A DNA stretch of 20,390 nt from a virus: the IMG/VR virus record IMGVR_UViG_3300009506_000599, positions 1 to 20,390 of that record, one strand, 5' to 3'. Under the pieces are notes generated by a model that searched no databases, was not told where the DNA came from, and saw only the letters and a list, made by a program, of their open reading frames with translations. Both the position numbers and the translations under genes were made by a program. Of the stretch, positions 1,266 to 18,921 are shown piece after piece. Position 1 is the stretch's first letter; each line of letters begins with the position of its first letter.

Positions 1266-1534
1266 CAGAGGAGCCCCGACACCACCTTCCCGACGGCTTC
1301 GAGGAGCCAGTCACGAACCTTGTCGATCGTCTTCTCCAGATACTCGGCGCTCAGGTTCATGGCCTGCGCCTTGACGTGCTGCATCTCGCGATCGACGTCC
1401 TCACCGACCGAGGCGCGTGCAGCCAGGAGCGCGGCGCTGGTCGCCACGCGCTCGACGAGCGCCACCGTCTCGTCGTCGATGTCGTCGGGAAGCACCTCGC
1501 GGATGCGACCCATCAGGTCGGAGAGGTTGGTCAC
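1265..1534 (-). CDS. Small helical protein of unknown function (89 aa, GTG start)
   Basis: The gene begins at a GTG at 1534 that overlaps the upstream TGA as GTGA. A GGAGG Shine-Dalgarno lies 7 nt upstream (1542-1546), which fixes this start over more distant ATGs in the same frame. The protein is almost entirely helical: an acidic N-terminal part (REVLPDDIDDETVALVERV), an Ala-rich middle (ATSAALLAARAS at 31-42), and an amphipathic C-terminal helix (YLEKTIDKVRDWLLEAVGKV). No TM segment is convincing. It sits between a small lipoprotein and a small TM protein, so it may work with them in lysis or virion assembly. I do not recognise the family. Confidence 0.75.
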   Translation of the reverse strand: MTNLSDLMGRIREVLPDDIDDETVALVERVATSAALLAARASVGEDVDREMQHVKAQAMNLSAEYLEKTIDKVRDWLLEAVGKVVSGLL

Positions 1535-1731
1535 TTCGATGCCTCCACGCGGCGCCGCCACGTCTCGACCGTGTCGTAGCGGAGCTGCTTCTGCTCCTGG
1601 GTGAGTTCGGGGTCGCTCTCGACGTAGATCACGTATTCGGGAGCGATCGCGTTGAACGTCTCCAGCTCGGCCTGCGTGTTGGGAGACACGCATCCGCCGC
1701 ACAGGAGTAGGGCCACTGCCAGCTTTCTCAT
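1531..1731 (-). CDS. Small lipoprotein (66 aa), possible outer-membrane lysis component
   Basis: The ATG at 1731 overlaps the stop of the giant ejection-protein gene as ATGA and has a strong GGAGGA Shine-Dalgarno at 1740-1745. The N-terminus MRKLAVALLLCGGC is a lipoprotein signal: Arg-Lys, a hydrophobic core, then a GGC lipobox with Cys14 as the acylation site. The mature peptide is about 52 residues, charged and probably helical (ELTQEQKQLRYDTVETWRRR). Short lipoproteins beside a TM protein are typical of o-spanin (Rz1-like) genes, but this one lacks the usual Pro-rich region and is not nested in another lysis gene. The lipoprotein call is firm; the spanin role is only a possibility. Confidence 0.8.
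   Translation of the reverse strand: MRKLAVALLLCGGCVSPNTQAELETFNAIAPEYVIYVESDPELTQEQKQLRYDTVETWRRRVEASK
1542..1546 (-). promoter_or_regulatory. Shine-Dalgarno (GGAGG) deciding a GTG start
   Basis: GGAGG on the minus strand, 7 nt before the GTG at 1534, inside the end of the lipoprotein gene. It is the main evidence that the 89-aa gene starts with GTG in translational coupling. Confidence 0.65.
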
Positions 1732-4700
1732 GGTTCGAGTCCTCCGAGTTGGTCGATGATCGGCTTCGCGAGAGCGTAGATCCTACGGTCCGCCTCGGCT
1801 CGATCTGGGGTGTTGCGCCTGATCGTGCTGATCTGCCGCTTGAGCTTCTCGACGCGCGGCCGCAGGGCGGCCTGCATCGGCGTGATCTCCCCGGAGCCAG
1901 CCAGCCGGCCGAGCTGGTCGCTCCAGTTGTAGATCGCGTCGCCGTAGGCGCCCAGCTCGTGCTCGCGGGAGAAGAACGAGCGCGGCAGCAGGCCGGTCGC
2001 GAACTCCCCCCGCGTGAGCGCACCGAACGCGCCCTCGGCGGACCGCGCGATCGCCAGGGCGAGGCCGCCGGTGTAGCCGCTGAGGATCGCCTCGACCTTG
2101 ATGGGCGAGACGCCGAAGAACGACCCGAGAGCCTTCGCGGTCTCGGTGGTGTAGCGGGTGTATTGGTCCTCGGGCAGCCGGCTCTTCTCCATCCACTCCG
2201 GGACCAGCTCGCGCTCCTTGAAGAAGGAGTGGTTCGCGATCACCTCGATGAAGGGCATGATCGCCGCGATCTTGTAGGCGTTCGTGACGGCGTCGCGCTG
2301 CTCCTCCAGGAAGCTCAGGAACGAGCGCCGGGCAGTCTCGCCGCCGCGCTCGTAGCGCAACGCATCGAGCACGCCCTCGATGCTGGTGCCGAAGATTTGG
2401 CCCAGCTCGAACGGCTTCGGGATCTTGAGGATCTCGTCGGTGCCGTGCAGCTTGAGGTTCCAGTAGTTCTCGCGCTGCCACTGCGGGAGATCCTCGCGCC
2501 AGTCGTCCTCGCCGAAGAGCGCGTTCCAGGCATAGACCGCGAGGGACATGCCGCCGATGTTCGCGAAGGCCCTCTGGAAGAACGCGGCCTGCGCAGCCTT
2601 GCCCTCGGCCCCGGTCATCACCCGGTAGAGCTTCCGCTTGCCGGCGAGGTTCGGCGCGTAGTAGGGCACGAGCTGGTTGATCGCGCGGGCGACGTGGCCG
2701 GCGCGCGTGAAGTTGGTGGTGATCTCCTTGGCCGCCAGCATCGCCTCGTAGAGCGCGTCGATTCTCGTCCCGCCGGCCTCGCGCACGTTGCGCTCGACGT
2801 CGACGAACTCGGTGAAGCGGTGCCAGGACTCGGGCTTCGAGAGGAACTGACCGACCCTCTGGTGCAGCTTCTTGAACGCCTTGGCGAACTCGTTGGCCGA
2901 CCGATGGAAGTCGCGCTGGAACTCGGTGCCGTAGATCGAGGCTCCTTCGAGGCCGACGTTGGCGTAGCGCAGGTAGTCCTGGGTCCCCCGGTGCTGCGCT
3001 CTGGCCGCGCGCACTGCATCGGCCATCGCGTTGAACATGTTGTAGTGCTCCTCGCCGCGCTTGAAGACCGTGGCCGTGATGAGGTCGCGCGCGATGTTGC
3101 GAGCAGCGAACGCCGGGCTGAGGACGGTGGCGCCTGCGCGCACCAGCTTCGATGGCCCGACGATCACGCTGTTGACGATGTCCGGCGCGTTGTCGATCAG
3201 CGACCGTGGGGCGTCGATCGTCATCAGCGCGTTGAAGATCGTGGGGTCGATCTCGAACCAGAGGACCTTGCCCTTCTCGGCGTTGAGCCTGCGCCGCTCG
3301 TTGGCGGTCAGGTTCAGCTCGTCCATGTAGCCTTCGGGGACGTTGGGTCGGAACGGGATGATCGGCTCCGCTCCGACGTGGGCGGTCATCGGGAACCAGA
3401 ACTGGATCGCCGTGCTCTCGTCACCGAACAGGCGGAGCATGTCGCCGGCCACCTTCCGGGCCTCGGCCATGAACTCCTCGCGCGCATCGGGGTCGTCCAT
3501 GACCTCGCCGCGCTCCTTGGCCTTCTTGTAGATTTCCTTCGCCATCTGGTCGACGAAGACCGTGCGCGGCTCCGCGTCGCGGGCGACCTGCGTGGCGAAG
3601 CTGCCCATCGGCGCCTGCTTGTTCGCGATCAGGCGCGGGTTCAGGATCCGGTTGTTCAGGTAGATGGCCTGCGTGACCATGTGGTGCTGCGCCTTCTGGA
3701 TCACGTCGTAGGCTTGGTCGCGCAGCACGCGCAGTGGATCTTCGATCTCCCAGCCCGAACCCTTGAAGCCCTTGAGCGCCTTGCCGCGCTCGCCGACACC
3801 GACGCCGGGCTTCACCGCCTCGACCCTCTCGCCCTGCGCTGAGCGGATCACCCGCTTGAACGGCAGGTAGACGTCGTAGGCGTTGGCGATGTTCTCGCGG
3901 TCGGACTCCTTGATGGAGCCAGCCTCGACGCCGTAGTCGATGACGCGCAGCGACCACTCACGGACGCGGCCGGCGATCTCCCGCCACTTCTCGCCCTTCG
4001 AGGTCGCGTCATACTTCTCGACAACGAAGTTCGCGTCGGCCTCGCTGAACCCGGTCTCCGGGACTTCCGCCAGCTCGCGAGCCTGCTCACCGGCCTGCTT
4101 GCCGATCTCGTGCGCTTCGGTGGGATCGGCGCCGGCCTTCTCCGCCGCCTTGAAGGCGCGCTCGTAGGCTTCCTCGTAGGCTTTCCTGCGGGGGAACTCG
4201 ACGAGCGACTGCACGCGCAGGGCGACGAAGAAGTTCCAGAAGCGCCGATACTCGTCGTTGCGCTCCGCCTTGGGCACATCCTTCCCGACGGCCTCGATGA
4301 TCGGCACGAGACCTTCGCCAGTCGGGTTGCCGAACAGGTCGAAGGTGCCCTCGTGGACGGCGCGCTGCGCCATCTGGTAGCCGGTCATGCGCTGCGCTTC
4401 GAGGAGCCGCAGCGGGTCCATCGTGATCGGGATGTCGAGCGGCTTCTCGACGCCCATCTCCGACGCCTTGCGCCACCTGTTCCACGCTTCCTTCGCCTTC
4501 GCGAGATCGTCGAGCATCGCGTCCCGGAAGGTCGACCACATGCGACGCACGCGGCTGCCCTGGAACTCGGCCTCGACCTCGGTCGGCTTTGCGCCCTCCA
4601 TGACGCGGCCCATCTCGACGCGGCGCTCGGCGCCGATGTCGCGGTAGTTCGCGAGGACCTGCCTGGAGTATTCGAGCTGGTTCCAGAAGCCCTGGGTCGA

Positions 4701-7700
4701 CTCGCGACCCATCAGGTCGCTCACCATGAAGCGGTAGAGGTTCGGCACCTCGTCCTGGAGTTCCGGATCCTCCAGTCTCCAGCGCGACCAGAACTCCGCG
4801 AAGCCCTCAGACTGCACGAAGTTCTTGAGCTTCACCTGCGCGGCTTCGAGCTTCGCGATGGTGTTGGCGTCGAGCGGTGTGCCGTCCGGAAGCATCCCGC
4901 TTTCGAGCACGTCCTTGATGATCTTCGTCTTCTCGTAGGCGTCCTTGATGCCGGGGTAGGTGCTCGCTGCTTCCGCCAGCTCGCGGTAGAGCACGTCGTC
5001 GATCTCGGTGGTCCCGTTCGGCCGCCACTCACCGCGCGCCTGGAGCCGGTTGTCCATCGCGTGCGCCTGCTCGTGCGACGCCTCGATGATCGCGTTCGGC
5101 TGGCGCAGGCGGGCCTGATGCTGCGAGGGCTGATACCACGCCCGCACGCCCTCGCTGATCCGCTCGCCTTCGATCCGAATGCCGGGGCGGATGCGGAGCT
5201 GCACCGGATCCTCGGGGCGCCCCTCCAGCGCGGCGATCGCGTCGGACATCCGGGTGTCCGGCACCTCCCGCGTCGTGACCGGCAGCATGACGTTCTGCGG
5301 CACGAGCCGCAGCGACTTCGGCTGCCCCATCCTCGGGCCGGGCACGTCGCCCTTGCCGAGCTGGAGGATCGCGTCGGCATCCTCGGCCGCCCGCTGCGCC
5401 TCGACGCGGTCGACCAGCATCTCCTCGTGCGTGCCGGGCTTGACCTCGCCCTCCCGGTCCGCGCGCAGGATCATCTCCTCGAAGGTCTCGGCCGCCTCCT
5501 CGGGGCGCTCTACTGGCGGCTCCTGGCTGCGAACTGGCGGCTCCTGGCTGCGAACTGGCTGCGGTTTGGTCGGGTCGAACTCCCCGCGCCGCGCCGCGCC
5601 GACGAGCTGCCCCAGAGTCAGGGTGCCGCCGCCGCCGATCGCCGGCACGTCGGGGAGGCCCGGCTCGTCCTTGAGCCCCGCGTCCTCGACGACCTTGGCC
5701 TCTGTGCCGGCCTGGACGGCCCGCAGCGCGGCCAGCAGCGACCGGATGTCCTGCTGGGCCTTCGCCGCCCGCTTCGTCCCCCGCTGGTTCCCGGCCAGCT
5801 TCCCGGCCTGCACGACCGAGCGGAGGCGCTGGATCTCCTCGTAGAGCTTCTTCGCGACGTCGGCTCTCTGAGCCCCCAGGTGCGGCTCTGAGACGCTCGC
5901 GGCGACATCGGCTCCGAGGAGCCGGTCCATCGCCTCGCGCGAACGTGGCGTGAACTGGACTGGCTCCGGCCCTCTCTCGCGCCTGACCTGCGCCGGGACC
6001 TCCTGGAGCCGGCGCAGGGCCTCTCTCAGCTCCCGCATCTTGCGGACCCGCTCCCGGATCGTGGAACCCTTGAAGACGTCCTTCCGGACGCCCCGGTGCC
6101 AGGGCTCCTTCTCCCGGAGCTGGTGGCGCAGGTGCTCGTTCTGGAGCCGCGTCAGCCGGTGCCGGATGGCGTTGGTGATCTGGTCCAGCTCGCCCTTGGT
6201 GTAGACGCGCGGCTCGGTCCCGATGACCTCTGCGAGCCGCTCAGCGCCCGGCATTCCACGCAGGGCCTCGCGGACCTGCTTGGCCCCGGCTGGGCTCAGG
6301 GGCCGCCCTGGGCGAACCTCGGGCGCCTGGGCGCGGCGCTCGCCCTGCCGGCGCTCGCCCGAGCCCTGGGTGAAGTGCTGGAACCAGATCAGCTTGCGCT
6401 GGGACGCATCAGGCGCCTCGGTGATCCGGCGCCGGACGTCCTCCGGCAGCTCCATGAAGTCGGTGCGCTCCAGCGGATCGGTCAGCTCCATGACCTGCTT
6501 CATCCGCTGGTTGAAGCTCTTCGACCTGCCGGCGCGGCGCTCGCCCTCCACCCGGCGCCGCTCGGGCTCGGTGAGCTTGTCGTAGTCGACCACTCGCCGC
6601 CGTGCTTCGCGCTCGGCGGCCTCACGCGCGCGCCCAGCCATCTCAGCCTCGGCTGCCTTCCCCTCGGCCGCGATCCGCTCGGCGCGCTCACGGCGGCGCT
6701 GGCGGGCCTCCTCGGCGCGGACCAGGGACTCGGCACGCTCCGGCAGGAGCAACGGCTTGGCCTCGGGAGCCGGCTGCTGAGCCTCCCTGGCGAGCTGCTC
6801 GACGCGCGCCTCGAACGGCGAGCGCCCGGTCATGCCCTTGTAGATGCCGAACGAGACGACGTTCGCCAGCACCTCCTTCGCCAGCGCGTTCGAGGTGTCG
6901 GCGCTCGGGTCGCGCATGAAGCGCCACAGCGACGACTCCAGCTCCAGCGCCGAGGCCGGCGTCAGCGCCAAGCCCTCGATCCCGCCGGCAATCGTGCGCT
7001 GCACGAACCTCGGCATCGACTTGCGCGTCGCCAGCAGGCGCTCGGCCGCCTTGCCCATGCGCCCGGCTGCCGCGAACGCGAGACCCATCGGGAGAGCGTG
7101 AGCGAAGGCGCGGCCGTAGCCGTCCATGCGCCCGTAGAGCGTGGACTCGTAGACACCGAGGCCGATGCCCTGGCCGAGCCCTGAGCGGAAGAACTCGGCG
7201 GCGCGGTAGAGCCGGGTGCCCGGCTTCGCGCCGAGCAGCAGCGCGGCGCCCATCTTCCCTCGGGTGATGAGCTGCGCCCCGGCACCGATCGCCTTGCCCC
7301 CGCCGGTCGCGATGAAGCCGGCCAGCGAGCCCAGACCGATCGTGATCGCAGTGCCGTAGCTCTCCAGCTCGCCGGTCTTCTGCGCGCGCATGATGTCGTC
7401 GGTCTCGGCGACGCGCACTGCATACTTGCGGATGTCGTCGACCGTCGCGTTGCTGCCCAGCTTGAGCATCACGTTCGCGAGACTGGTCGAACTCTGGGAG
7501 CGCGGCGCGCGGTCGACCAGCTTGCCGTTCCGATCGACGAACGGCTCGGCGTAGGCTTCGGCGCGGTAGTTCTTGAGGAGGTCCTGGTAGTAGGGATCGT
7601 CGCTCAGCGTGGCGACGGCGCTGAGCCCGACGTCCATCACCGCGTTGCCGGCCGCCGCGAGCGACGACTCGAACGCCTTGCCACCCTGGTAGAGCGCTCT

Positions 7701-8396
7701 GCCGACGGGGGTTCCGAACTCGGCCTCCTGGGCCGGACCCTCCGTGAAGTAGCCGGCCCCCGCGCCGACACCGATGCCGTCGACGATGCGCTTGTAGTCG
7801 GGGTCCTCGTTGATGTCGTAGTTCGGGTTCTGCTCGCGCGCCGCTTGCGCCCACGCCCCGAGCACCGACAGGATGCGCTGCCGGTCTTCCTCGGGAATCT
7901 CGTGCTTCTGCATCTGCATCTGCGCGAGAGCGATGTCGTCCGGCGTCGCGTAGGGGCCGACCTTCGCGAGCACGCTCTTGTTCAGCGCGGCGAACTTGTC
8001 GAGGTGCGAGTCGAAGAGGCGGATGCCGGCCTGGATCTCCGGGCGCTTCTTCACGAGGTCCATCTCGGCCTGACGCTGGGCCAGGATGGGCACGATGAAG
8101 GTCTGCGCCACCTCGGGGCTCGCAGCGCGCGAGCCCGGGTAGACGTGGTTGATCGGATCGAGACCGTTGGTCCGCGCCTTGACGACGGACCCGAGGTAGC
8201 GCTTCCACTCTTCGTGCAGAAGGGCGGCGCGCTTCTCCGGGTCCTGTTCTTCGTCGACGGCGTTGCGGAGTTGGATCCCCTGGATCGCGTCCAGCGTCAG
8301 CGACGGATCACCAGTTTCGGCCGACGTTGTAGGGGTTGCCCCCAGCTCCGTAGTTCCGGTTGCGTCGTCTGGTGTCGCGGGCTCGTTGATCTTCAT
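1728..8396 (-). CDS. Giant ejection / internal virion protein with zincin motif and LPD38-like C-terminus (2222 aa)
   Basis: This is the largest gene, a third of the window. By position (after two other internal-virion-like genes) and size it corresponds to the T7 gp16-like ejected protein or a polyvalent phage protein. Visible parts: a helical N-terminus; Gly/Ala-rich hydrophobic stretches at about 344-452 that could enter a membrane (TIGLGSLAGFIATGGG, ALPMGLAFAAAGRM); a very charged Arg/Glu/Ala coiled-coil zone at about 530-800; a Pro-rich linker with a duplicated VRSQEPP heptapeptide near 950-960; and an HEQAH zincin-type motif with His1108, Glu1109 and His1112, followed by SEGFAEFW (Glu1197) as a possible third-ligand region. 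Further on is a long helical part. The C-terminal YAPNLAGKRKLYRVMTGAEG...WQRENYWNLKL region (about 1910-2050) resembles the LPD38 domain of polyvalent proteins. The ATG at 8396 has GAAGG 9 nt upstream and overlaps the preceding gene by 89 nt. Confidence 0.85.
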   Translation of the reverse strand: MKINEPATPDDATGTTELGATPTTSAETGDPSLTLDAIQGIQLRNAVDEEQDPEKRAALLHEEWKRYLGSVVKARTNGLDPINHVYPGSRAASPEVAQTFIVPILAQRQAEMDLVKKRPEIQAGIRLFDSHLDKFAALNKSVLAKVGPYATPDDIALAQMQMQKHEIPEEDRQRILSVLGAWAQAAREQNPNYDINEDPDYKRIVDGIGVGAGAGYFTEGPAQEAEFGTPVGRALYQGGKAFESSLAAAGNAVMDVGLSAVATLSDDPYYQDLLKNYRAEAYAEPFVDRNGKLVDRAPRSQSSTSLANVMLKLGSNATVDDIRKYAVRVAETDDIMRAQKTGELESYGTAITIGLGSLAGFIATGGGKAIGAGAQLITRGKMGAALLLGAKPGTRLYRAAEFFRSGLGQGIGLGVYESTLYGRMDGYGRAFAHALPMGLAFAAAGRMGKAAERLLATRKSMPRFVQRTIAGGIEGLALTPASALELESSLWRFMRDPSADTSNALAKEVLANVVSFGIYKGMTGRSPFEARVEQLAREAQQPAPEAKPLLLPERAESLVRAEEARQRRRERAERIAAEGKAAEAEMAGRAREAAEREARRRVVDYDKLTEPERRRVEGERRAGRSKSFNQRMKQVMELTDPLERTDFMELPEDVRRRITEAPDASQRKLIWFQHFTQGSGERRQGERRAQAPEVRPGRPLSPAGAKQVREALRGMPGAERLAEVIGTEPRVYTKGELDQITNAIRHRLTRLQNEHLRHQLREKEPWHRGVRKDVFKGSTIRERVRKMRELREALRRLQEVPAQVRRERGPEPVQFTPRSREAMDRLLGADVAASVSEPHLGAQRADVAKKLYEEIQRLRSVVQAGKLAGNQRGTKRAAKAQQDIRSLLAALRAVQAGTEAKVVEDAGLKDEPGLPDVPAIGGGGTLTLGQLVGAARRGEFDPTKPQPVRSQEPPVRSQEPPVERPEEAAETFEEMILRADREGEVKPGTHEEMLVDRVEAQRAAEDADAILQLGKGDVPGPRMGQPKSLRLVPQNVMLPVTTREVPDTRMSDAIAALEGRPEDPVQLRIRPGIRIEGERISEGVRAWYQPSQHQARLRQPNAIIEASHEQAHAMDNRLQARGEWRPNGTTEIDDVLYRELAEAASTYPGIKDAYEKTKIIKDVLESGMLPDGTPLDANTIAKLEAAQVKLKNFVQSEGFAEFWSRWRLEDPELQDEVPNLYRFMVSDLMGRESTQGFWNQLEYSRQVLANYRDIGAERRVEMGRVMEGAKPTEVEAEFQGSRVRRMWSTFRDAMLDDLAKAKEAWNRWRKASEMGVEKPLDIPITMDPLRLLEAQRMTGYQMAQRAVHEGTFDLFGNPTGEGLVPIIEAVGKDVPKAERNDEYRRFWNFFVALRVQSLVEFPRRKAYEEAYERAFKAAEKAGADPTEAHEIGKQAGEQARELAEVPETGFSEADANFVVEKYDATSKGEKWREIAGRVREWSLRVIDYGVEAGSIKESDRENIANAYDVYLPFKRVIRSAQGERVEAVKPGVGVGERGKALKGFKGSGWEIEDPLRVLRDQAYDVIQKAQHHMVTQAIYLNNRILNPRLIANKQAPMGSFATQVARDAEPRTVFVDQMAKEIYKKAKERGEVMDDPDAREEFMAEARKVAGDMLRLFGDESTAIQFWFPMTAHVGAEPIIPFRPNVPEGYMDELNLTANERRRLNAEKGKVLWFEIDPTIFNALMTIDAPRSLIDNAPDIVNSVIVGPSKLVRAGATVLSPAFAARNIARDLITATVFKRGEEHYNMFNAMADAVRAARAQHRGTQDYLRYANVGLEGASIYGTEFQRDFHRSANEFAKAFKKLHQRVGQFLSKPESWHRFTEFVDVERNVREAGGTRIDALYEAMLAAKEITTNFTRAGHVARAINQLVPYYAPNLAGKRKLYRVMTGAEGKAAQAAFFQRAFANIGGMSLAVYAWNALFGEDDWREDLPQWQRENYWNLKLHGTDEILKIPKPFELGQIFGTSIEGVLDALRYERGGETARRSFLSFLEEQRDAVTNAYKIAAIMPFIEVIANHSFFKERELVPEWMEKSRLPEDQYTRYTTETAKALGSFFGVSPIKVEAILSGYTGGLALAIARSAEGAFGALTRGEFATGLLPRSFFSREHELGAYGDAIYNWSDQLGRLAGSGEITPMQAALRPRVEKLKRQISTIRRNTPDRAEADRRIYALAKPIIDQLGGLEP
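1740..1745 (-). promoter_or_regulatory. Shine-Dalgarno (GGAGGA) for the lipoprotein gene
   Basis: Perfect GGAGGA 8 nt before the ATG at 1731, inside the last codons of the 2222-aa gene. It should give efficient translation of the first of the three small genes, in addition to coupling by the ATGA overlap. Confidence 0.6.
5512..5553 (-). repeat. Two perfect 21-bp tandem copies inside the giant gene
   Basis: Two identical 21-nt units lie head to tail at 5512-5532 and 5533-5553, and the first five bases recur at 5554. In the protein they give VRSQEPP twice, in a Pro/Gln/Glu-rich linker. The repeat is in frame, so copy-number change would lengthen or shorten the linker without a frameshift. Confidence 0.9.
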
Positions 8397-9765: not shown

Positions 9766-10643
9766 CAGAACCACCCGCTCCCTGCTGCGCCGCCGGCAGC
9801 CATTCCGAACCCGCCGGCAGCCATGCCGATGTTGCCGGACAACAGACCGCCGACACCCATCCCGATCCCGGCGAACGTCTGCATTCGCGCCTGCTTCTTC
9901 TGCAAGTCCTCGGCGCGTCGCATCAGCTCCATCTGGATCTGCTGCTGCTCCTTCTGGATGAAGTAGCTGTAGTCGGCGGCCTCGTATTCCATGTTGGAAT
10001 ACATGTCCGCGAGGCCCTCGTAGAGCCCCATCTGGAGCGTCGCCAAAGAGCCGCGCCCGCGAGACTGCACCTGCCCCATGCCGGTCTGGAGTGCGGCGAT
10101 GCCCTTCTCCTGCTGCATCTCGTTCTGGCGCTGCGTGATCGCCTGCGAGATGTAGTTCATGTTCGCGGCTGCCTCGCCGAGCGTCATGGCGCCACCCGAG
10201 GCGTCCGCGATCTGCTGCGGCGTCATCAGGAAGTTGCCCTGCTCGTCGACGAGCCGTCCGCGACCGATCGGCATCCCGTAGCGCTGGGCGAGGTTCTGAG
10301 CCATCTGGTCGAGGCTCGTGCTGCCCATCGGCATGTCCGCTTGCAGCTCGCCACCGCCGGCAGCCTGCGCCGCCTGGAACTGCTGCTGGCGCACATCGAA
10401 GCCGATGCCACCCATCGAGGTCTGGGCGTTCTGCACCTGATCGTAGAGCTGGTTCAGGCTCGCCATCTGCTGCTGGAGACCCGTCGGGGGAAGACCCTGG
10501 GCCTGAGACTGCGCCGGGGAGATCGCCTGCCCGCCGGGCATCGGTCCACCAGCACCGCCAGCCTGAGCGTTGCCCCCGGACTGCTGGTCCTTGAGACCCC
10601 CCATCGCCCCTTGAACGAGGCTGCCGATGTTGAAGTCGCTCAT
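9765..10643 (-). CDS. Probable internal virion / ejection protein with Gly/Ala hydrophobic tail (292 aa)
   Basis: The N-terminal 55 residues are Gly/Gln/Pro-rich and probably disordered. The middle (about 56-255) is helical and very rich in Gln and Met (QQQFQAAQAAGGGELQADMP, QKEQQQIQMELMRRAEDLQK). The last 36 residues are a Gly/Ala hydrophobic stretch (FAGIGMGVGGLLSGNIGMAA and onward) with small-residue spacing suited to packing inside a membrane. This layout recalls T7 gp14-type ejection proteins, which insert in the outer membrane during DNA delivery; the assignment is by composition and gene order, not by family match. The true start is the ATG at 10643, which overlaps the previous stop as ATGA; an in-frame ORF extends further upstream but only as a shadow of the fibre gene. 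The stop overlaps the next ATG (TGATG). Confidence 0.82.
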   Translation of the reverse strand: MSDFNIGSLVQGAMGGLKDQQSGGNAQAGGAGGPMPGGQAISPAQSQAQGLPPTGLQQQMASLNQLYDQVQNAQTSMGGIGFDVRQQQFQAAQAAGGGELQADMPMGSTSLDQMAQNLAQRYGMPIGRGRLVDEQGNFLMTPQQIADASGGAMTLGEAAANMNYISQAITQRQNEMQQEKGIAALQTGMGQVQSRGRGSLATLQMGLYEGLADMYSNMEYEAADYSYFIQKEQQQIQMELMRRAEDLQKKQARMQTFAGIGMGVGGLLSGNIGMAAGGFGMAAGGAAGSGWF

Positions 10644-11317
10644 GGTGTCTTCACGTAGAACAGGGTGATGTAGCCGTAGAAGGTGCTCCGGTTCGTGCCT
10701 GTGCGGATCTGCACGCTGCCGCCGGCCGCGATGATCTGGAGCTGGATCTGGTTCGCGAGCGAGGCGGTGTTGGCTGCCGGCAGCGGATACTCGGTGTTGC
10801 CAGCACCACCGCCCGTCGTGTCGTAGGCGATCGCCTCCCAGGCGATCGCGAAGTCGAGGTTGGTGATGCCGTGCGCGACCGCCTTCGTGGTCGTGTTCGG
10901 CAACAGGCCGAAGTCGATGGTCTTCTGGTAGATCGTGCGGCCGTCGATCCAGGTGCGGTTCGTCGCCTGCTCGCTGGTCGAGTAGTCCTTGTGCAGACCG
11001 CTCGTGCCGCCGCTCGGCGCCGCCACGAACTCCAGGCCCGTCGCGCCCGCGTTCACCGCCACGAAGTCCCCGCCGGCTCCGGCGTAGCTCGCAGGCGTGT
11101 CGGTGAGCTGGAGGAACGTCGACGCGCCGCCGCCGCCGCCGTTGCAGCACTCGTCGATGATCGAGCTGATGTCGTCGCAGATCGCCTGCCGCAGCCGGTT
11201 CAGGTAGTCCTCAAGGAACTGGTCGTTGATCTGGCCGGTGCTCGCGTTGCTGTCCCCAATCTGCGGGGTCGCTTGGTAGCGGAACGGCTCGACGTCGCAA
11301 ATCTTGCTGGTGGGCAT
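10640..11317 (-). CDS. Tail-fibre-tip-like virion protein (225 aa)
   Basis: Three parts are visible. Residues 1-58 form a short N-terminal attachment part ending in the helix YLNRLRQAICDDISSIIDE and a Cys-Cys pair. Residues 59-64 are six glycines. Residues 67-98 hold the phage fibre motif FLQLTDTPASYAGAGGDFVA ... GATGLEF, known from many tail fibres. From about 120, WIDGRTIYQKTIDFGLLPNT ... AHGI and a final GYITLFYVKT are typical of the small C-terminal head domain of phage tail fibres (YxxxTxxtWIDGkpIYrK pattern). The protein is therefore probably a receptor-binding or tip protein on the tail, short because it lacks a long shaft. It follows another structural gene by TGATG overlap and precedes ejection proteins by ATGA overlap. 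Confidence 0.85.
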   Translation of the reverse strand: MPTSKICDVEPFRYQATPQIGDSNASTGQINDQFLEDYLNRLRQAICDDISSIIDECCNGGGGGASTFLQLTDTPASYAGAGGDFVAVNAGATGLEFVAAPSGGTSGLHKDYSTSEQATNRTWIDGRTIYQKTIDFGLLPNTTTKAVAHGITNLDFAIAWEAIAYDTTGGGAGNTEYPLPAANTASLANQIQLQIIAAGGSVQIRTGTNRSTFYGYITLFYVKTP

Positions 11318-12618
11318 CAGCGATACTCTTGCCAGTTGAAGCCGCCGGCCGCGTTGAGCGTGCCGCTGATGAGCGAGACCGCGATGGTCAGCCGGTCCGG
11401 AGTGGTCCCGGCGATGTCGAGCGCGATCGGCAGGCGCCCGAGGACGAACGCCTCACCGGCGCTGGAGGATTGGTTCGTGGCGTTCGCGTAGAAGCGCCGC
11501 ACCACGATCCCGCCCGTGACCACCGTCGCCGCCGTGTCGAACTCCATGACCGACTGCGCGTCGACCGAGGCGAACGCGGCTCCAGTAAGCGTGCCGTTGT
11601 AGATCACGTCGACGTAGCCGAGCCCGTTGGTGCCGCTGAACAGCGTCTCGATCTGGCGCTGGATGATCTGCACCCGGTTGGTCAGACCGTTGAACGTGGT
11701 CTTCGGGCGGATGCTGATGATCGGGACCCGCGCGCCGCCGACCGACTTCATCGCGATCGACCCGGTCGCGAACGGGAACCCGACCGTGGCCTCCTGGCCG
11801 CCCTCGGAGATCACCGAGCAACAGATTTGATCGAAGTTCGTGACCCCTGCCGGGGCTCCGGTGGCTTCGATCTCGTAGCGCACTGGAAGCTGAGCGGTCG
11901 TCATGTAGACGACGGTCAGCGTGTTCGCGTTCAGGAACTCGTGCGCGTAGCGGATAATCCCGTCGATCACGAAGCCGACGCGGACGCGGCCCACCCCGAG
12001 CCACTCCATGTCGATCACGAGGATCTGCGTCTTCGTCGGATCGAGGTCCGAGAAGGCGTCGAGGTTCCAGTCCGCTTGTGCGATTCGGTTGTCGACTACC
12101 GCTCCGCTGGTGTAGGTGCGACGGACGAACCAGAGCGCGCCGTCGATCTCCTCCAGGAAGATCCCGTTCTGCGCCTCGAAATAGCCGACCCGCTTGCGGA
12201 CGTTCGGATCACCGGCGAGCAAGTTGAACGTGCAGAAGACGAGCTGCGACTTGCCCGGCTGGTAGCGGAAGTAGTCCTTGGTCTGACGGACCGCCGCGTC
12301 GCCGTTGTTCGTGACGGCGAGCCGGGTCGCGGACTCGTTGACCCGAAACGTCGCGGTGCCGCCAGCCGTCAGCGCCTCGTTCCACAGGAGCGTCTGCTTG
12401 TCGTAGGTCTGCGTCGACTCGAAGAGACCCTCTGGCTCCGAGACCCGCAGCCGGTCGAAAGCGTCGATCGAGGGGCTGTCGCCGAATGCTACGGGGAGGT
12501 TTCCGCTGGCCGCCTTCGGGGTGATAAGTGAGTCGACGAGCAGGCGGTGGTTCCGCACCGCTGCCATGTGGCCGGTGTTGTCCTGGTCCGCGATGCGTGA
12601 CTTGCCTGCACCTGCCAT
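11317..12618 (-). CDS. Conserved phage virion structural protein, FDRLRVSEP family (433 aa)
   Basis: Residues 54-62 read FDRLRVSEP, followed by a long conserved body with QTKDYFRYQPGKSQLVFCTF (near 112-131), GYFEAQNGIF, WLGVGRVRVGFVIDG and FDQICCSVISEGGQ. I recognise this set from a widespread family of marine and environmental phage proteins, usually annotated only as structural or hypothetical. The body is beta-rich with repeated aromatic strands, consistent with a tail or baseplate/fibre-associated protein. The N-terminus (about 1-48) looks extended and may be a docking arm. Its place between the nozzle and the fibre-tip gene suggests a part that joins the fibre to the tail, but no experimental role is known to me. 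The start at 12618 overlaps the nozzle stop as TAATG. Confidence 0.85.
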   Translation of the reverse strand: MAGAGKSRIADQDNTGHMAAVRNHRLLVDSLITPKAASGNLPVAFGDSPSIDAFDRLRVSEPEGLFESTQTYDKQTLLWNEALTAGGTATFRVNESATRLAVTNNGDAAVRQTKDYFRYQPGKSQLVFCTFNLLAGDPNVRKRVGYFEAQNGIFLEEIDGALWFVRRTYTSGAVVDNRIAQADWNLDAFSDLDPTKTQILVIDMEWLGVGRVRVGFVIDGIIRYAHEFLNANTLTVVYMTTAQLPVRYEIEATGAPAGVTNFDQICCSVISEGGQEATVGFPFATGSIAMKSVGGARVPIISIRPKTTFNGLTNRVQIIQRQIETLFSGTNGLGYVDVIYNGTLTGAAFASVDAQSVMEFDTAATVVTGGIVVRRFYANATNQSSSAGEAFVLGRLPIALDIAGTTPDRLTIAVSLISGTLNAAGGFNWQEYR

Positions 12619-15600
12619 TACTTGCTCGTCCTCGGCGTGACCATCAACAGGATCGAGATGGGCTCCTCGGGAGCGAAGTTCCTGAACCGCACAGCCATGA
12701 AGCTGTGGACGTAGCGACCGACCGGCTTGACCTGCCGACCCTTGGAGTAGTCCATCCGGAAGACCCGGCCTTCGCCGGTCTCGTTCGTGACAGGGTCGAC
12801 AACCGTCAGCTCTTCGGGGTCGATCTGCGAGAAGTCCGGCAGCAGCTCGACGCGGAGCTGGCTGGAGAAGCTCTCGATCTTGTGGACCACGACCTGCCGC
12901 CAGTCGCGCTTCGTCATGTCGTCGGTGCCGTAGTTCTGCGGCTTGAACAGGCAGTTCATCTCGATGGCGCCGACCATGAAGTCGTCACCCTCGGCAGGCT
13001 GCTCGGAGCCCCACGGCGGCGTGATGAAGAGCTTGTCGTCGGTCGCCGCGTAGATCGTCCGCACGGTCCACGGGTCATCCAGCTCAGCATCCGCGCCGCG
13101 CGTGTAGAGGCACACGCCAGCAAGGCCCAGATCGTCACCGTCGAGAGCCCCAGAAAGACCAGGAACCCCTGACAGGTTCGCGAGGCCAGGGAGTCCGCCG
13201 GTGATGAAGCCGCCCGCAGTCGACTGGAGGTAGTCGGCGCCGAACTCGTCGACGCCTGCCGCTGCGACCGTCCCACGAACCTGCCCCGTGGCGTTCGGAT
13301 AACCCACTCCATCCGTGTCTCCCACGTCGAAGATCCAGACGAAGCCGTTGGTGTCCCCCAGGTAGACGCGCTCGTTGCCGTCCGCGTCCTTGCCGACCTC
13401 CATCGACTGAAACTCCTGGCAGAACTTCAACAGCGTGATGTTCTGGAGCGACACGTCCCACACGAGCATCAGGTTGCACCCGCGCTCGGTCTGGATGGTC
13501 GGCAGCAGCAGGAGATACTGCTCGCGCTTGGGATAGAAGACCCCCACCGCGTCGATCACTCGCCCGTTGCGGTCGCGCCGCACGTAGAGCGGGTTGTCGG
13601 GGTTGGTGAAGAGGTCGTTCATGTTCTCGGAGGCCGGGACGTGGCCCACCGAGCGACCGTCGAACAGAGCGAGTCCGCGCTCTGCGAGCCACACCGACCC
13701 GCTGGCGACCTGCGCGAAGCTGCGCGGCGCGATGCAGCCGATGTCCGAGCTGATGCGGCTCGGAACGATCACCTCCAGCGCCGGGCTCTCGCGGAACGTC
13801 AGGACGTAGGTCTTCCTCCGCTTGCAGATCACGAGTCGGTCGAAGTTCGAGACCGCTCCCATGATCCGGTCGCCGTCGCCGGGCTCGATGTCGAGGAAGT
13901 TCGCAGCCGGCCAGCACTCGGGCTCCAGAGGCTCGCTGATGTAGAGCCGGTTGGGGCGCCCGCAGATCGAGTAGGTCAGCCCGGTATCCGTGGACCCCTC
14001 GTAGGCGTCGACGAGCTTGAGGCGCGCGATCGGCGGCGAGATGCCAGACACCGGCGGCAGCACCTTGAGGATCTCGTAGGAGCGACAGTCGCCCGCGATC
14101 TGGATGAACTTCCCCTCCAAGCAGCGGGTCCATTCGACCGCGCCATCGCCGAGCACGATGTCGCTGCCGTTCTCCACGCTCACGAGGCCGGCGGGGGTCA
14201 AGTTGGGGATGTCGCCCATGCCGAACAGGCGGTTCCGGAAGTCGACGACGATCGGCACGCAGGGCATCGGACCGTTGAGGTTCGAGATGCCCTCGGTGAA
14301 GAAGTCGAGTTCCGAGTCAGCCAGCTCGTCGACGAAGGTGCTTGCTTCGTCGACGTTGAAGCAGCCAACCTTCGCGAGCACGGAGTCGTCCTGGCCGCCA
14401 AGGACTGAGCGGTAGAGGCAAATCTCGCAGATTTGCGAGTCGCCGGGGATGCGGACTCCAGCGAACGAGAACGTGACCTTGGCGGCCGGCGATGCGCCGG
14501 TGGTGTCGACCTCGATCACCTCACTCGGATCGCTCTCCTTGCCGGTGCAGCAGTTCCGGAAGGTGTAGCGGTAGATGTAGCTCCCCGCACCGAGGCCGCC
14601 AGCCGGAGACGCTGACGTGTCGTCGACGATGAAGCTCGGCAGCTCACCGTCGAACGGCAACGGCATCCCGGCATCTTCGATCTCGCCTGCCGTCCCGGCT
14701 GCTGTCGGGTTGAACTTCTGCGGGATCGAAGAGCCGTTCGTGATGATGAGCAGCGGTGGCTCGCCGAGCCCCGCGCTCGTGGCCGCGCATCCCTCCGCAG
14801 CGAAGGCCGCGAGATCGAACAGCGGACCCAGGTCGAGGAACTCTCGGTTCGGGACGACGAGCCCGTAGGCGATCATCGAGCCGCCCGGCTGCCCGGTGGT
14901 CCAGACCGCCGACGATGCGTAGTCGATGAGAACGCGGGCTCCCGCGAGGTTGATCGGATTGTTGGTGGTGATCGGCCCGGCCGTGAGCTTGTAGCCGAAG
15001 TCCAGGACAGGGGTCGACGTGACGTGCGGGAAGATGAAGGCGTTGAACCCGGACGTCGCCGGATCGCACTGCGTATCCGCGTTGATGATGAGCCCCTGCT
15101 GGACGACGTCGACGGCGCTCACCGCCTTGAAGCCACCCCACAGCTCCTCGAAGCGGATGATGCTCTCAGGGATGCCCTGATACCACGTCGGGTCGAAGTA
15201 GCCCTTCCCATACCAGAACTGCGTCGGGTGCCCGACCTCGCCGATCGCGATCGGGCCGCCAGTCGATCCGGGGTGCGGGCAGACCGTCTTGTTGAAGTCC
15301 TCCTGGATGATCTCCAGGTAGCCGTAGGGCTGGCCGATCGACGTGCCGACCAGCTTGCGCCACTCGATGCCGAGCAGGTCGCCGTCGACGAGCGACGAGA
15401 GGACGTTCAGGCTGCGGTGGCCGGCGTCGACGTTGCTCACGCCGATCGCGTCGCTGAACGACTCGGTGTAGCGCTGGATCGCAGTGACGGATCCACCGCC
15501 GAGCTGCATCGCTGCAAGCTCCATCTCCATGTTCCAGGTGCCGGAGCCGCCGGAAGACGGCAGGAAGCTCCAGGCATGGACCGAGGTGACGTTGTCCCAA

Positions 15601-16349
15601 TCGGCTTCGCGCCAGACCCAGGGGAACGCACGCGGCGTCCCGAAGCTCGTGCCCTCCGCGCCGTAGCTGATCCACCCGTTTGCCGAGAGGATCGTGGTGG
15701 TCCGGTTCACGCCGGTCGGCGCCTGCACGACCGAGCACCCGCCGCCTTGGAAGATCAGGTTGTTGGTCTTCGAGTCTGTCGACCAGTTGGCGAGTTCGCT
15801 CTCCGGGACGAGGCCGAACTTGCAGTAGTCGTCGTCGCCGTTCGCCGCCGCCATCTCGTCCCAGGCGTTGAAGAAGTCCGCGCTGTCCGCAAGGAAACGA
15901 TCGAACTCGACGAGGATGAAAGTGCTGGCCCGGTCGGCGAACGTGGCGATGTCCTGGAGGTCCTCCCAATCGCCACCCTTGTTGAAGAGCGCGCCCTCGT
16001 CGTTCGGTGGGTTCGGGAAGTCGCTGGACCCACCTCTCGTGCGGAACGTGGCGCCTGGAACGATCGTCGCGGCGACCGGCACGATCGACGTCGAGCTGCT
16101 CGACGAGATCGCGATGCGCAGGCGCACCCGCCCGGTCGTCGGAGGCGTCGCATCGAAGAGCACGCAGTTCATCCAGAACGAGACCTTGCGGACCTCGCTG
16201 TAGCGCGCTGGGTTGAGGTAGAAGTTGCCCGGGTCGGGGAGCACCAGGAAGCGCCCGAACGCCGACGGGTTGTTCGAGTTGACGCCCGACCCACTGGAGC
16301 GGATGCACGCGGTTCCGTGCGACTTCGGGTAGCGAAGGCCGAGCGCCAT
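12618..16349 (-). CDS. Tail nozzle-like beta-propeller protein with large N-terminal extension (1243 aa)
   Basis: The C-terminal half resembles tail nozzle proteins (T7 gp12, P22 gp10): an Fn3-like segment at about 570-685 (SYIYRYTFRNCCTGKESDPS), then propeller blades (VDFRNRLFGMGDIPN, RPNRLYISEPLEPECWP, FDRLVICKRRKTYVLTF, GCIAPRSFAQVASGSVWLAE, RGLALFDGRSV, YLLLLPTIQTERG, VYLGDTNGFVWIFDVGD). About 1015-1120 is an inserted small domain, and WRQVVVHKIESFSSQLRVEL is a closing strand set. The first 500 or so residues are not nozzle-like. They are Ser/Gly/Trp-rich and beta-rich, with strands such as VSFWMNCVLFDA and TWNMEMELAAMQL, and may be one or two lectin-type sandwiches. The usual nozzle N-terminus is missing here and is found in the gene immediately upstream. 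More than 20 cysteines are present, including CEIC at 641-644. The start has GGAGG 9 nt upstream and a TGATG overlap. Confidence 0.82.
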   Translation of the reverse strand: MALGLRYPKSHGTACIRSSGSGVNSNNPSAFGRFLVLPDPGNFYLNPARYSEVRKVSFWMNCVLFDATPPTTGRVRLRIAISSSSSTSIVPVAATIVPGATFRTRGGSSDFPNPPNDEGALFNKGGDWEDLQDIATFADRASTFILVEFDRFLADSADFFNAWDEMAAANGDDDYCKFGLVPESELANWSTDSKTNNLIFQGGGCSVVQAPTGVNRTTTILSANGWISYGAEGTSFGTPRAFPWVWREADWDNVTSVHAWSFLPSSGGSGTWNMEMELAAMQLGGGSVTAIQRYTESFSDAIGVSNVDAGHRSLNVLSSLVDGDLLGIEWRKLVGTSIGQPYGYLEIIQEDFNKTVCPHPGSTGGPIAIGEVGHPTQFWYGKGYFDPTWYQGIPESIIRFEELWGGFKAVSAVDVVQQGLIINADTQCDPATSGFNAFIFPHVTSTPVLDFGYKLTAGPITTNNPINLAGARVLIDYASSAVWTTGQPGGSMIAYGLVVPNREFLDLGPLFDLAAFAAEGCAATSAGLGEPPLLIITNGSSIPQKFNPTAAGTAGEIEDAGMPLPFDGELPSFIVDDTSASPAGGLGAGSYIYRYTFRNCCTGKESDPSEVIEVDTTGASPAAKVTFSFAGVRIPGDSQICEICLYRSVLGGQDDSVLAKVGCFNVDEASTFVDELADSELDFFTEGISNLNGPMPCVPIVVDFRNRLFGMGDIPNLTPAGLVSVENGSDIVLGDGAVEWTRCLEGKFIQIAGDCRSYEILKVLPPVSGISPPIARLKLVDAYEGSTDTGLTYSICGRPNRLYISEPLEPECWPAANFLDIEPGDGDRIMGAVSNFDRLVICKRRKTYVLTFRESPALEVIVPSRISSDIGCIAPRSFAQVASGSVWLAERGLALFDGRSVGHVPASENMNDLFTNPDNPLYVRRDRNGRVIDAVGVFYPKREQYLLLLPTIQTERGCNLMLVWDVSLQNITLLKFCQEFQSMEVGKDADGNERVYLGDTNGFVWIFDVGDTDGVGYPNATGQVRGTVAAAGVDEFGADYLQSTAGGFITGGLPGLANLSGVPGLSGALDGDDLGLAGVCLYTRGADAELDDPWTVRTIYAATDDKLFITPPWGSEQPAEGDDFMVGAIEMNCLFKPQNYGTDDMTKRDWRQVVVHKIESFSSQLRVELLPDFSQIDPEELTVVDPVTNETGEGRVFRMDYSKGRQVKPVGRYVHSFMAVRFRNFAPEEPISILLMVTPRTSK

Positions 16350-17248
16350 CAGACCTGCCCTCCAGAGACCGATTCGATCTGCGGGTCCGGCGTGTCGTCA
16401 GTGCGTTGCAGGCCAACCGCGCTGAGCTGCCCGAGGCCCGCGTCCTGGGCTTCCGAGATCGTCCCGGTGAGAGACAGCGACGTGCCGCCGGACGGGATCA
16501 CCGACAAGGTCGCCGTGAACGTGCCGGCGTCGTAGCTGAGGCGCAGGAAGCCGTCCGCCAGCTTCCTCCCGGTCACGTCGCTTTCCGCGAGCAGAGTGCG
16601 GGAGCCGTTCAGGACCAGGTAGAGGTAGGCCCGGTAGGTCGTCTCGTCGGTGACGATCGCGGCCTCCAGGTAGGAGAGCCCGTCAGTCGATCGCTTCACC
16701 ACGACCGACGTGACCTGCTTGGTGCTGAGCGCTTCGAGGCGGTAGTTGGTCTCGACGTAGTAGCTCTGGACTACCGCCGGCTTGAACCACTGCATGAGCT
16801 GCGCGGCGCGCACGAAGTTGTCGGTGTTCTTCGCGTCCAGGTCGTTGAGCTGGAGCGCCCCGAGGAACACCTCGTAGGCGGAGGTGTTGCTCCAGCGGGT
16901 CGTGTCGAGGGTCTCGAAGTCGTCGAACGGCAGCGAGTCGCTGCCCAGGAAGGTCGGCACCTCGAAGGGCGTCCTGACCTTGATGCCGGCTTGGTCGGAG
17001 ACGACGAGATACTCGATGCCGCAGTTGTCCGTGTAGCGGAAGAGCCCGCAGACGACGCCGTCGAACCGCTCGTCGAGCCCCCTGATGAGGCCCTTCCGCT
17101 TCTCCAGGAGGTCGGCTTCGTTGATGACGACGTTGAAGCTGCCGTCCTCCAGGTAGCCGGCACCCGGATCGAGAAGACCGCCCTTCGTGTTCAGGCCGGG
17201 CCACGGTTGGCCCTGCGGTCGCAACGGAAACTCGGTCCACTTCGTCAT
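16349..17248 (-). CDS. Nozzle N-terminal segment plus lectin-like domain (299 aa)
   Basis: Residues 15-93 match the start of tail nozzle proteins: PWPGLNTKGGLLDPGAGYLE, then a NVV strand, LLEKRKGLIRGLDERFDGVV, and YLVVSDQAGIKV, which is the usual first propeller blade. At about 100 the nozzle sequence stops and a new domain begins with DSLPFDDFETLDTTRWSNTS, a pattern common at the start of concanavalin-A/laminin-G-like sandwiches. It continues with regularly spaced strands (YYVETNYRLEAL, SVVVKRSTDGLSYLEAAIV, YRAYLYLVLNGSRTLLAE, GFLRLSYDAGTFTATLSVIP) to about 280. The protein ends soon after, and the rest of a nozzle appears in the next gene. Likely role: an assembled tail part that contributes one nozzle blade and a surface-exposed glycan-binding domain. 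Starts and stops are TGATG overlaps on both sides. Confidence 0.8.
   Translation of the reverse strand: MTKWTEFPLRPQGQPWPGLNTKGGLLDPGAGYLEDGSFNVVINEADLLEKRKGLIRGLDERFDGVVCGLFRYTDNCGIEYLVVSDQAGIKVRTPFEVPTFLGSDSLPFDDFETLDTTRWSNTSAYEVFLGALQLNDLDAKNTDNFVRAAQLMQWFKPAVVQSYYVETNYRLEALSTKQVTSVVVKRSTDGLSYLEAAIVTDETTYRAYLYLVLNGSRTLLAESDVTGRKLADGFLRLSYDAGTFTATLSVIPSGGTSLSLTGTISEAQDAGLGQLSAVGLQRTDDTPDPQIESVSGGQV
16359..16363 (-). promoter_or_regulatory. Shine-Dalgarno (GGAGG) for the 1243-aa nozzle gene
   Basis: GGAGG on the minus strand, 9 nt before the ATG at 16349. It argues that the second half of the nozzle is made from its own start and is not merely the broken remainder of an older fused gene. 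Confidence 0.55.
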
Positions 17249-18921
17249 CAGAACCCCAGCAGGTTGTTCAGCGACGCGGAGCGCGTCAGCGGGATCTCGC
17301 GGGAGACGCCCTGGTCAGCGATCGAGCGGAACACCGTCTGCTTTCCGCTGACCTTGCGGTTGTTCGCCCGGATCAGGGCCTTGGCCTTCTTCATGTAGAC
17401 CCCGCCCATCGTCTGCGAGTTCGCGCTGTCGGTGTCGAGCAAGAGCGCGTGCGCCGCAGCGCCGTAGATCAGCACGTCGATGTGCGCCTGCGGCACGAAC
17501 GGGATCTGCACGTCGGGCTCGCTCGGCACGAGCTGCCGCGCGAAGTATTCGATGATGAGGTAGGGGTCGTTGGTCCCGTTGACCGGGATCTGGTCGTCGC
17601 CGGGCGCCGGGTAGATGTTGATGGTCTTGCGGCCGTCAGGCCCGGTCTGCGCGGGCGTGTAGGAGCGCGGGCGGCCGGCCGTGGTCGTCGCGCCTCCGAG
17701 GAGCTGATGGAACCTCCAGGTGTCCATCTCCCGCAGCGGGACGTCGTTCCAGTTGCCGGGCCTGATGACCTCGACCAGCTCGCAGTCCTCGGGCAGCTCG
17801 TATTCGGAGACGCCGTTGCGCAGGTAGATGCGCTGCGTGCGCCGCATCCAGTCGAAGTAGCCCTCCTCCCGGATGATGTCCGCCTCGGCCTCCAGGACGA
17901 ACTGGAGGTAGGTGTCGAACTTGGTCGCGGCGTTGGTGGTCGCGTTGTATTTCGCGTCGCCGTCCTTCTCGACCAGCGTGATGACGCGGTTCGTGACGTC
18001 GCGGTAGGTGCGAGCGGCCCCGGGCGACGTGCGCACTGGCTGCATCACCGAGCGGAACGTCTCGACCGTGAAGATGCCGCACCGGAGCTGGCTCAGCCCG
18101 GCGAGCGAGAACGGACTCACCCCCGCCGGCTGCGTCGTCAGTGTGCCGCTGAGGAACTCGAAACCAGGGACGCCGATGATGCCCCACAGCGGATCGACGC
18201 GGTCCCGGTAGGTGAGCTTCGGCGTGTTCAGGTTGCGGTCGTTCAGGAAGACGTCCAGGTCGACCTGCGCGTCCTTCCGCTGGATGCGGAGCCGCATGTC
18301 CTGCCAGAAGCCCTTGTAGGGGAGGATGTCGCCCTGGGAGTAGCTGGTGGGGTCGAAGTCCGGGTCGAGGTTCAGGTCGTCGAAGTCGAGCGTCACCTGG
18401 AGCAGCACGACCATGCCGTCGACCTCGGTCGACGACGGCCGCGCGAGCCCGGGCAGCCGCTTCACCGGCATGAACTTGATGAGCTTGAGGATCGGCGCCG
18501 ACCCATCCAGCGGGAAGGTGACGCGGGCTCCGTAGCCCTGGTCGTAGCAGTTCGGATCCTCCTCGACGTTCAGGTCGTAGAGGAGCGGGTCCTTCGTCAT
18601 GCGCGCGAGCAAGGTGAAGCTCGGCGCCGTGGTGATCTCGCCGGTGTCGAGTGCGCTCGGGTCCTCGCCATCGTGGGCGAAGGTGCCCCGGACGACGTAG
18701 TCCGGGCCGTCCATCGCGTCGGCGGTGTAGAGCACCTGCGTCTTCCGCGCGGTGACATCTGACGGGAAGGGGAACTGAGGGCTGATCCCCGAGGGGATCT
18801 CCGCTGCGTTGATCGGGATCACCGCCTCGTCCGCGATGATGACTCCGCCACAAGCCTGCGTGTAGTTGTCCCCGATCTCCCCGTCGGCACGGTCGAACTT
18901 GTCGATGAAGCGGCTCGTCAT
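17248..18921 (-). CDS. Head-tail adaptor (T7 gp11-like) with N-terminal lectin-like extension (557 aa)
   Basis: Residues about 305-557 have adaptor features: RDVTNRVITLVEKDGDAKY and FVLEAEADIIREEGYFDWMR helices, then a strand unit with YLRNGVSEYELPEDCELVEV, RKTINIYPAPGDD, YLIIEYFARQLVPSEPD, and a helical end IDVLIYGAAAHALLLDTD ... YMKKAKALIRANNRK. This matches podovirus adaptors that form a 12-fold ring under the portal. Adaptors of this type are normally 180-260 residues, so the first 290 residues are an addition. They begin FIDKFDRADGEIGDNY, a typical opening of laminin-G/concanavalin-A-like sandwiches. They also contain the strands VDGMVVLLQVTLDF and DMRLRIQRKDAQVDLDVFLN and close at about 290 (CGIFTVETFRSV). 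The start ATG has GAGGA 7 nt upstream (18929-18933) and overlaps the preceding stop as ATGA. Confidence 0.85.
   Translation of the reverse strand: MTSRFIDKFDRADGEIGDNYTQACGGVIIADEAVIPINAAEIPSGISPQFPFPSDVTARKTQVLYTADAMDGPDYVVRGTFAHDGEDPSALDTGEITTAPSFTLLARMTKDPLLYDLNVEEDPNCYDQGYGARVTFPLDGSAPILKLIKFMPVKRLPGLARPSSTEVDGMVVLLQVTLDFDDLNLDPDFDPTSYSQGDILPYKGFWQDMRLRIQRKDAQVDLDVFLNDRNLNTPKLTYRDRVDPLWGIIGVPGFEFLSGTLTTQPAGVSPFSLAGLSQLRCGIFTVETFRSVMQPVRTSPGAARTYRDVTNRVITLVEKDGDAKYNATTNAATKFDTYLQFVLEAEADIIREEGYFDWMRRTQRIYLRNGVSEYELPEDCELVEVIRPGNWNDVPLREMDTWRFHQLLGGATTTAGRPRSYTPAQTGPDGRKTINIYPAPGDDQIPVNGTNDPYLIIEYFARQLVPSEPDVQIPFVPQAHIDVLIYGAAAHALLLDTDSANSQTMGGVYMKKAKALIRANNRKVSGKQTVFRSIADQGVSREIPLTRSASLNNLLGF

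Follow-up and report, generated by a model that had tools for sequence, protein, structure and literature searches.

The nozzle, through which DNA leaves the tail, is the DNA gate of short-tailed phages. Every solved or named nozzle encountered in our analysis is one chain, and in T7 gp12, SU10 gp17, P22 gp10, and Pa223 this single chain forms the platform, the propeller, and the inserted tip domains. In T7 gp12 and SU10 gp17 the propeller has seven blades, and blade 1 is a velcro that closes it by joining N- and C-terminal strands (PMC6702177, PMC9509320). The platform of T7 gp12 (~790 aa; PDB 7boy; PMC6702177) takes three strands from the N-terminal 45 residues and also draws on the C-terminus, and the nozzle tip is inserted at blade 3. 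In SU10 gp17 (1005 aa; PDB 7z47, 7z4b; PMC9509320), blades 2 and 3 are separated by four Ig domains.

Two profile families of single-chain nozzles are also relevant here. PHROG 3287 includes Pa223 9nwi, PaP3 orf13, and the 622-aa “stabilization protein” of DSL-LC04, each encoded by one ORF in which no more than a small beta-domain separates blades 1 and 2. A tblastn search with the DSL-LC04 protein led to PaP3 orf13, which is almost the same protein as the solved Pa223 9nwi and resembles the VP1 and SU10 (7z47) nozzles. The PHROG 511 nozzles (Pseudoalteromonas phage PH1, KF-1, BcepIL02, and CF418P1) are encoded by one ORF of 530–650 aa in which an Fn3-like domain is followed by blades, and blades 1 and 2 are contiguous.

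The locus described here encodes a 299-aa protein (chain A; 16349..17248, minus strand) and a 1243-aa protein (chain B; 12618..16349, minus strand), which a preliminary description had taken for a tail nozzle split over two genes. This proposal has held up, with nozzle families and nozzle structures matched by the larger protein and the N-terminus of one nozzle family matched by the first 95 residues of the smaller. The PHROG 3287 nozzles are colinear with the pair, their N-terminus corresponding to the 299-aa protein and their propeller to the 1243-aa protein, while PHROG 511 gives the best profile match to the latter. As with SU10 gp17, which is among the Foldseek matches, large beta domains are inserted into the propeller; the two phages also have SU10-type capsid protein and adaptor families in common, and a velcro blade 1 may be shared by analogy. 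In contrast to the one chain of SU10 gp17, with its Ig domains between blades 2 and 3, the present nozzle would comprise two chains, with the break and the inserts between blades 1 and 2 and one insert of lectin fold. The likeness to T7 gp12 would lie in the propeller nozzle, the platform drawn from both termini, and the velcro blade 1; a lectin domain is absent from T7 gp12. The solved examples hold the platform and all blades in one polypeptide, an arrangement seen neither here nor in the relatives, all of which are split.

Operon context and a conserved gene split

The window, that is, the whole stretch of DNA that was analysed, is a 20,390-bp contig that makes up an entire virus record and is probably a genome fragment. 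On its minus strand, the gene order runs from an SU10_MCP-type capsid gene, truncated by the contig end, through a small zinc-ribbon-like gene and the genes for the 557-aa adaptor, the 299-aa, 1243-aa, 433-aa, and 225-aa proteins to further genes. An SU10_MCP domain (5.2e-52) and an SU10_adaptor domain (PF24175, 9.6e-15; residues 305–518 of the 557-aa protein, 17248..18921, minus strand) are both present, as in an SU10-like capsid/tail module. The nozzle genes adjoin the tail adaptor, the end of the adaptor gene being the start of the 299-aa gene; the relatives checked likewise have an adaptor of similar length (548–634 aa, stop to stop) ahead of the small gene. At its N-terminus, the adaptor is extended by ~300 aa, which begin IDKFDRADGEIGDNYT and look lectin-like by eye; a profile comparison of this extension with the chain A lectin domain gave no signal.

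The genes for the adaptor and the 299-, 1243-, 433-, and 225-aa proteins (10640–18921, minus strand) meet in successive stop/start overlaps of exactly one base, at 17248, 16349, 12618, and 11317. These overlaps across five consecutive structural genes suggest a fully coupled tail operon. The two nozzle ORFs are exactly as first described and share one base within TGATG; since the one-base TGATG-type overlap is the usual boundary of this operon, the 299/1243 junction is not special in itself. In the junction sequence, GGAGGGCAGGTCTGATG (16347..16363, minus strand), the stop TGA overlaps the start and a Shine-Dalgarno motif, GGAGG, stands 9 nt before the ATG.

Relatives were gathered by profile scans, which yielded about thirty other contigs, many of them 40–49 kb. 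Both parts are visible in 30 other viral contigs, all of which have the two-gene layout and none a fused gene. In these relatives, the nozzle-like N-terminus is followed by about 196–226 residues and a stop, and a second ORF carries the remainder; three further contigs terminate shortly after the stop of the small gene. Identity among relatives is 30–69% for the small protein and 39–74% for the large one. The split is conserved in a group of uncultured short-tailed phages. A fused relative was sought among viral contigs, among cultured phages, and in the genomes of 84,980 prokaryote species, and none was found; the cultured phages and those prokaryote genomes likewise yielded no close relative. 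A split nozzle is not described in the literature searched (open-access coverage). The chance that the split arose through an error of sequencing or assembly, or through decay of a single nozzle gene, is in our estimate negligible, as 30 other contigs are split at the same place and both parts are strongly conserved; assembly error was rejected on the same 30 contigs.

Junction types vary among relatives (TGATG, TAATG, TAGTG, GTGTGA, ATGA, and overlaps of 8–11 bases). A Shine-Dalgarno match of at least 5 nt precedes the second start in 14/22 sequences, as compared to 9% of random positions. The own start of each half, a point already made in the preliminary description, is thereby joined by an own ribosome-binding site and by a frame relation that is not conserved, which together argue against sequencing error and against programmed frameshifting. 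The direct overlap of stop and start does recall some recoding sites; programmed frameshifting or readthrough of the stop could then still yield some fused nozzle, with the 299-aa protein as a truncated form. We regard this as highly improbable: the frame offset of the second ORF is +2 in most relatives but +1 in L008, L014–L017, and others, so that no single shift joins both ORFs, and most relatives have a separate Shine-Dalgarno and start for the second ORF. Additionally, the same overlap parts plainly distinct genes of the operon. Programmed frameshifting was rejected on the differing offsets, and the two chains are probably translated separately in a coupled manner.

Nozzle homology of the two proteins

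The 1243-aa protein matches two nozzle families, PHROG 511 (1e-11) and PHROG 3287 (1.7e-8), and such matches were obtained for 7/7 chain B members tested. In hhalign comparisons, chain B residues 568–904 align with positions 127–365 of a single-chain PHROG 511 set (2.4e-13), and residues ~793 to 1009 align with a PHROG 3287 set (3.9e-6). The AF2 model of chain B (residues 44–1243) is mediocre (pLDDT 69, pTM 0.45); Foldseek nonetheless returned the nozzle chains of cyanophage A4, SU10, Pa223, PhiM1, VP1, T7, and P22, at TM-scores of only 0.2–0.3. Neither protein, nor the profile of either, gave a direct sequence match to PDB nozzles. A match to the designed propeller Pizza6 (6f0t, 3.4e-4) was dropped, as it consists of six tiny repeated motifs, none significant alone. 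By profile and by predicted fold, the 1243-aa protein is identified as a tail nozzle protein.

At a looser setting, the PHROG 511 alignment extends back to chain B residue ~536, equivalent to position 94. Upstream of this point, single-chain nozzles have ~93 residues, as compared to ~532 unrelated residues in the 1243-aa protein. As judged from these alignments, the N-terminal ~90 residues of single-chain nozzles are missing from chain B. In their place stand residues 1–532 (14754..16349, minus strand), inserted, fast-evolving, beta-rich domains that have no counterpart in single-chain nozzles; residues 44–500 gave no alignment to the latter, and much of residues 1–500 is well predicted by AF2. 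About 500 beta-rich residues of non-nozzle sequence had been expected at this end, in good agreement with the ~530 that precede the alignable part. The preliminary description had also placed the Fn3-like part at the start of the nozzle region. The non-nozzle stretch ahead of it stands, but the nozzle-like part opens earlier, at residue ~533, with an apparent blade 2 ahead of the Fn3-like domain.

Blades were counted from sequence and AF2 strand lists, which are consistent with blade 1 lying in chain A and blades 2–7 in chain B, and the blade limits given here are approximate in this sense. Residues 533–1010 (13320..14753, minus strand) would comprise blade 2, the Fn3-like domain (about 570–690), and blades 3–7, as supported by hhalign and Foldseek. 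By analogy with T7 gp12 and SU10 gp17, the C-terminal part (residues 1011–1243; 12621..13319, minus strand) is expected to contribute the velcro strand together with what remains of the platform.

A candidate for the missing piece is the conserved N-terminal segment of chain A, GLNTKGG...VVSDQAGIKV (residues 1–95; 16964..17248, minus strand), which corresponds to PHROG 3287 positions 10–109. Four divergent chain A members match the N-terminus of this family in one register, with a start offset of +5 (15–120/10–109, 17–84/12–77, 18–88/13–82, and 29–86/24–80). Their E-values of 0.011–0.11 refer to a library of 38,880 families; arithmetic from these values gives roughly 1e-6 per member if PHROG 3287 is treated as one pre-specified family. 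In hhalign, chain A 1–91 aligns to 1–82 of eight single-chain nozzles (P 0.0066), and 0/250 query column shuffles scored as high; in an earlier shuffle test, the real score was reached by 2/150 shuffled targets and 0/150 shuffled queries. The segment gave no signal against the PHROG 511 nozzles, no nozzle match in the PDB, and nothing in hhalign with shallow alignments against DSL-LC04 alone. Each test is weak, but the same family is matched in the same register, N-terminus to N-terminus, and we read residues 1–95 as the probable nozzle N-terminus, with platform strands and blade 1.

The AF2 model of chain A has strands at 66–73, 79–85, and 88–92, which we infer to be three strands of blade 1. 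Residues 1–60 are unfolded when predicted alone, as expected if the remaining strands of the platform sit on the other chain. Confidence is likewise low for chain B residues 1137–1243 predicted alone, and the two low-confidence stretches correspond to the two platform halves in T7 and SU10. Low confidence at these chain ends may also stem from a shallow alignment.

The weakness of the chain A homology in single tests leaves room for a different assignment, in which the 299-aa protein is a separate, lectin-bearing tail accessory that merely resembles a nozzle N-terminus and the 1243-aa protein is a complete nozzle closing its own propeller. The blades of chain B are read from sequence and strand lists rather than from coordinates, which leaves this assignment some further room. 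Set against it are the four chain A members that match the N-terminus of the nozzle family in one register and the extent of the homology in chain B, which begins at about blade 2 and has no nozzle-like N-terminal segment before it. A complete, closed propeller was accordingly not found in the 1243-aa protein alone. We judge the accessory assignment unlikely, and the evolutionary rates given below also speak against it.

A lectin-fold domain and fast-evolving inserts

At about residue 100, chain A changes from the nozzle-like segment to a well-predicted beta-sandwich, as had been noticed from the sequence. This domain (residues 100–299; 16352..16951, minus strand) has an AF2 pLDDT mostly above 90 and belongs to no detectable sequence family. 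Its Foldseek matches are GH43 enzymes whose C-terminal domain is of lectin type, an engineered 1,3-1,4-beta-glucanase, legume lectins, and an entry for a mycobacteriophage baseplate. The predicted fold is confirmed as concanavalin-A-like, a two-sheet jelly-roll sandwich common to the C-terminal domain of GH43 enzymes, GH16 glucanase, and legume lectins. The preliminary description had placed lectin-like domains on both sides of the break; this stands for chain A 100–299, while residues 1–500 of chain B can be described only as beta-rich. In profile comparisons, the domains inserted in chain B gave no signal of internal repeats or of a relation to the lectin domain of chain A. In DSL-LC04, a 1365-aa protein annotated as concanavalin-A-like (L013:3799-7896) is encoded a few genes from the single-chain nozzle gene.

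The nozzle parts and the inserted parts differ in their rates of change. Measured against the window, median identity is 68% for chain A 1–95 and 66, 72, and 56% for chain B 501–690, 691–1010, and 1011–1243, respectively, as compared to 37% for the lectin domain and 26–34% for chain B 44–500. The pieces between the nozzle parts evolve about twice as fast as the nozzle pieces, a pattern expected of surface receptor-binding inserts. Chain A 1–95 is as conserved as the propeller, unlike the lectin domain it is joined to, which is difficult to reconcile with a separate accessory protein. Distances for chain A 1–95 correlate with those for chain B 501–1010 (r 0.90, slope 1.23). The lectin domain distances correlate with the propeller too (r 0.92), and such correlations are also expected from shared descent.

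A proposed two-chain assembly and other genes of the contig

We consider it likely that the tail nozzle of this SU10-like short-tailed phage is divided into two genes, with one protomer made of two co-translated chains and the cut falling after blade 1, before blade 2. From chain A would come the platform strands of the N-terminus and those of blade 1, and this chain would end in the lectin-fold domain. Chain B would start with ~530 residues of variable beta domains and then provide blades 2–7, the Fn3-like domain, the strand that closes the propeller, and the remainder of the platform. Coupled translation could keep the chains at about 1:1, and six heterodimers (6+6) may assemble into a hexamer on the dodecameric adaptor, with the platform and the velcro blade 1 completed in trans, between chains. 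In such a nozzle, the DNA gate would be held in the manner of T7 or SU10. Each new chain end would place its domains outside the propeller, facing outward, where they may bind host-surface glycans. A stronger form of this model, to which we give about an even chance, makes the nozzle an obligate hetero-oligomer (six copies per chain) in which a second polypeptide completes the velcro blade and the platform jelly-roll and exchangeable receptor-binding domains occupy the new chain ends.

Inserts in this region of the propeller are already known, and the chain break is the new part. The break could be functionless in a nozzle of the same architecture if lectin-type cassettes between blades 1 and 2 brought gene boundaries with them, which were then fixed while the chains continued to pair. 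Nearby inserts are tolerated by single-chain relatives (an apparent beta-domain after blade 1 in DSL-LC04, the Ig domains of SU10), and the boundary type is ordinary for this operon. The count of 0 re-fused genes among 31 contigs, where small indels could produce one, tells against this origin and is not decisive. We hold it to be a real possibility, though short of an even one.

A conserved two-chain nozzle would show that propeller closure can operate between chains and would mark the blade 1–2 loop as a site for adding receptor-binding modules. If receptor-binding domains do sit on the nozzle, receptor contact could act directly on the DNA-holding gate, and the locus would offer a natural split protein for testing gate opening. 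For annotators, a “missing” nozzle N-terminus may sit in a small upstream gene.

Downstream of the nozzle genes, the 433-aa structural protein (11317–12618, minus strand; PHROG 1645, 7e-90) is a widely shared virion part. Its relatives at 33–42% identity include proteins of Puniceispirillum phage HMO-2011, DSL-LC04, and cyanophages such as S-RIM8, and the DSL-LC04 relative adjoins the single-chain nozzle of that phage. A 2222-aa protein (1728–8396, minus strand) is possibly an ejected internal virion protein. Two small ORFs resemble lysis/spanin genes by eye, one membrane-protein-like (927–1265, minus strand) and the other a 66-aa lipoprotein-like ORF (1531–1731, minus strand) with the motif LLLCGGC.
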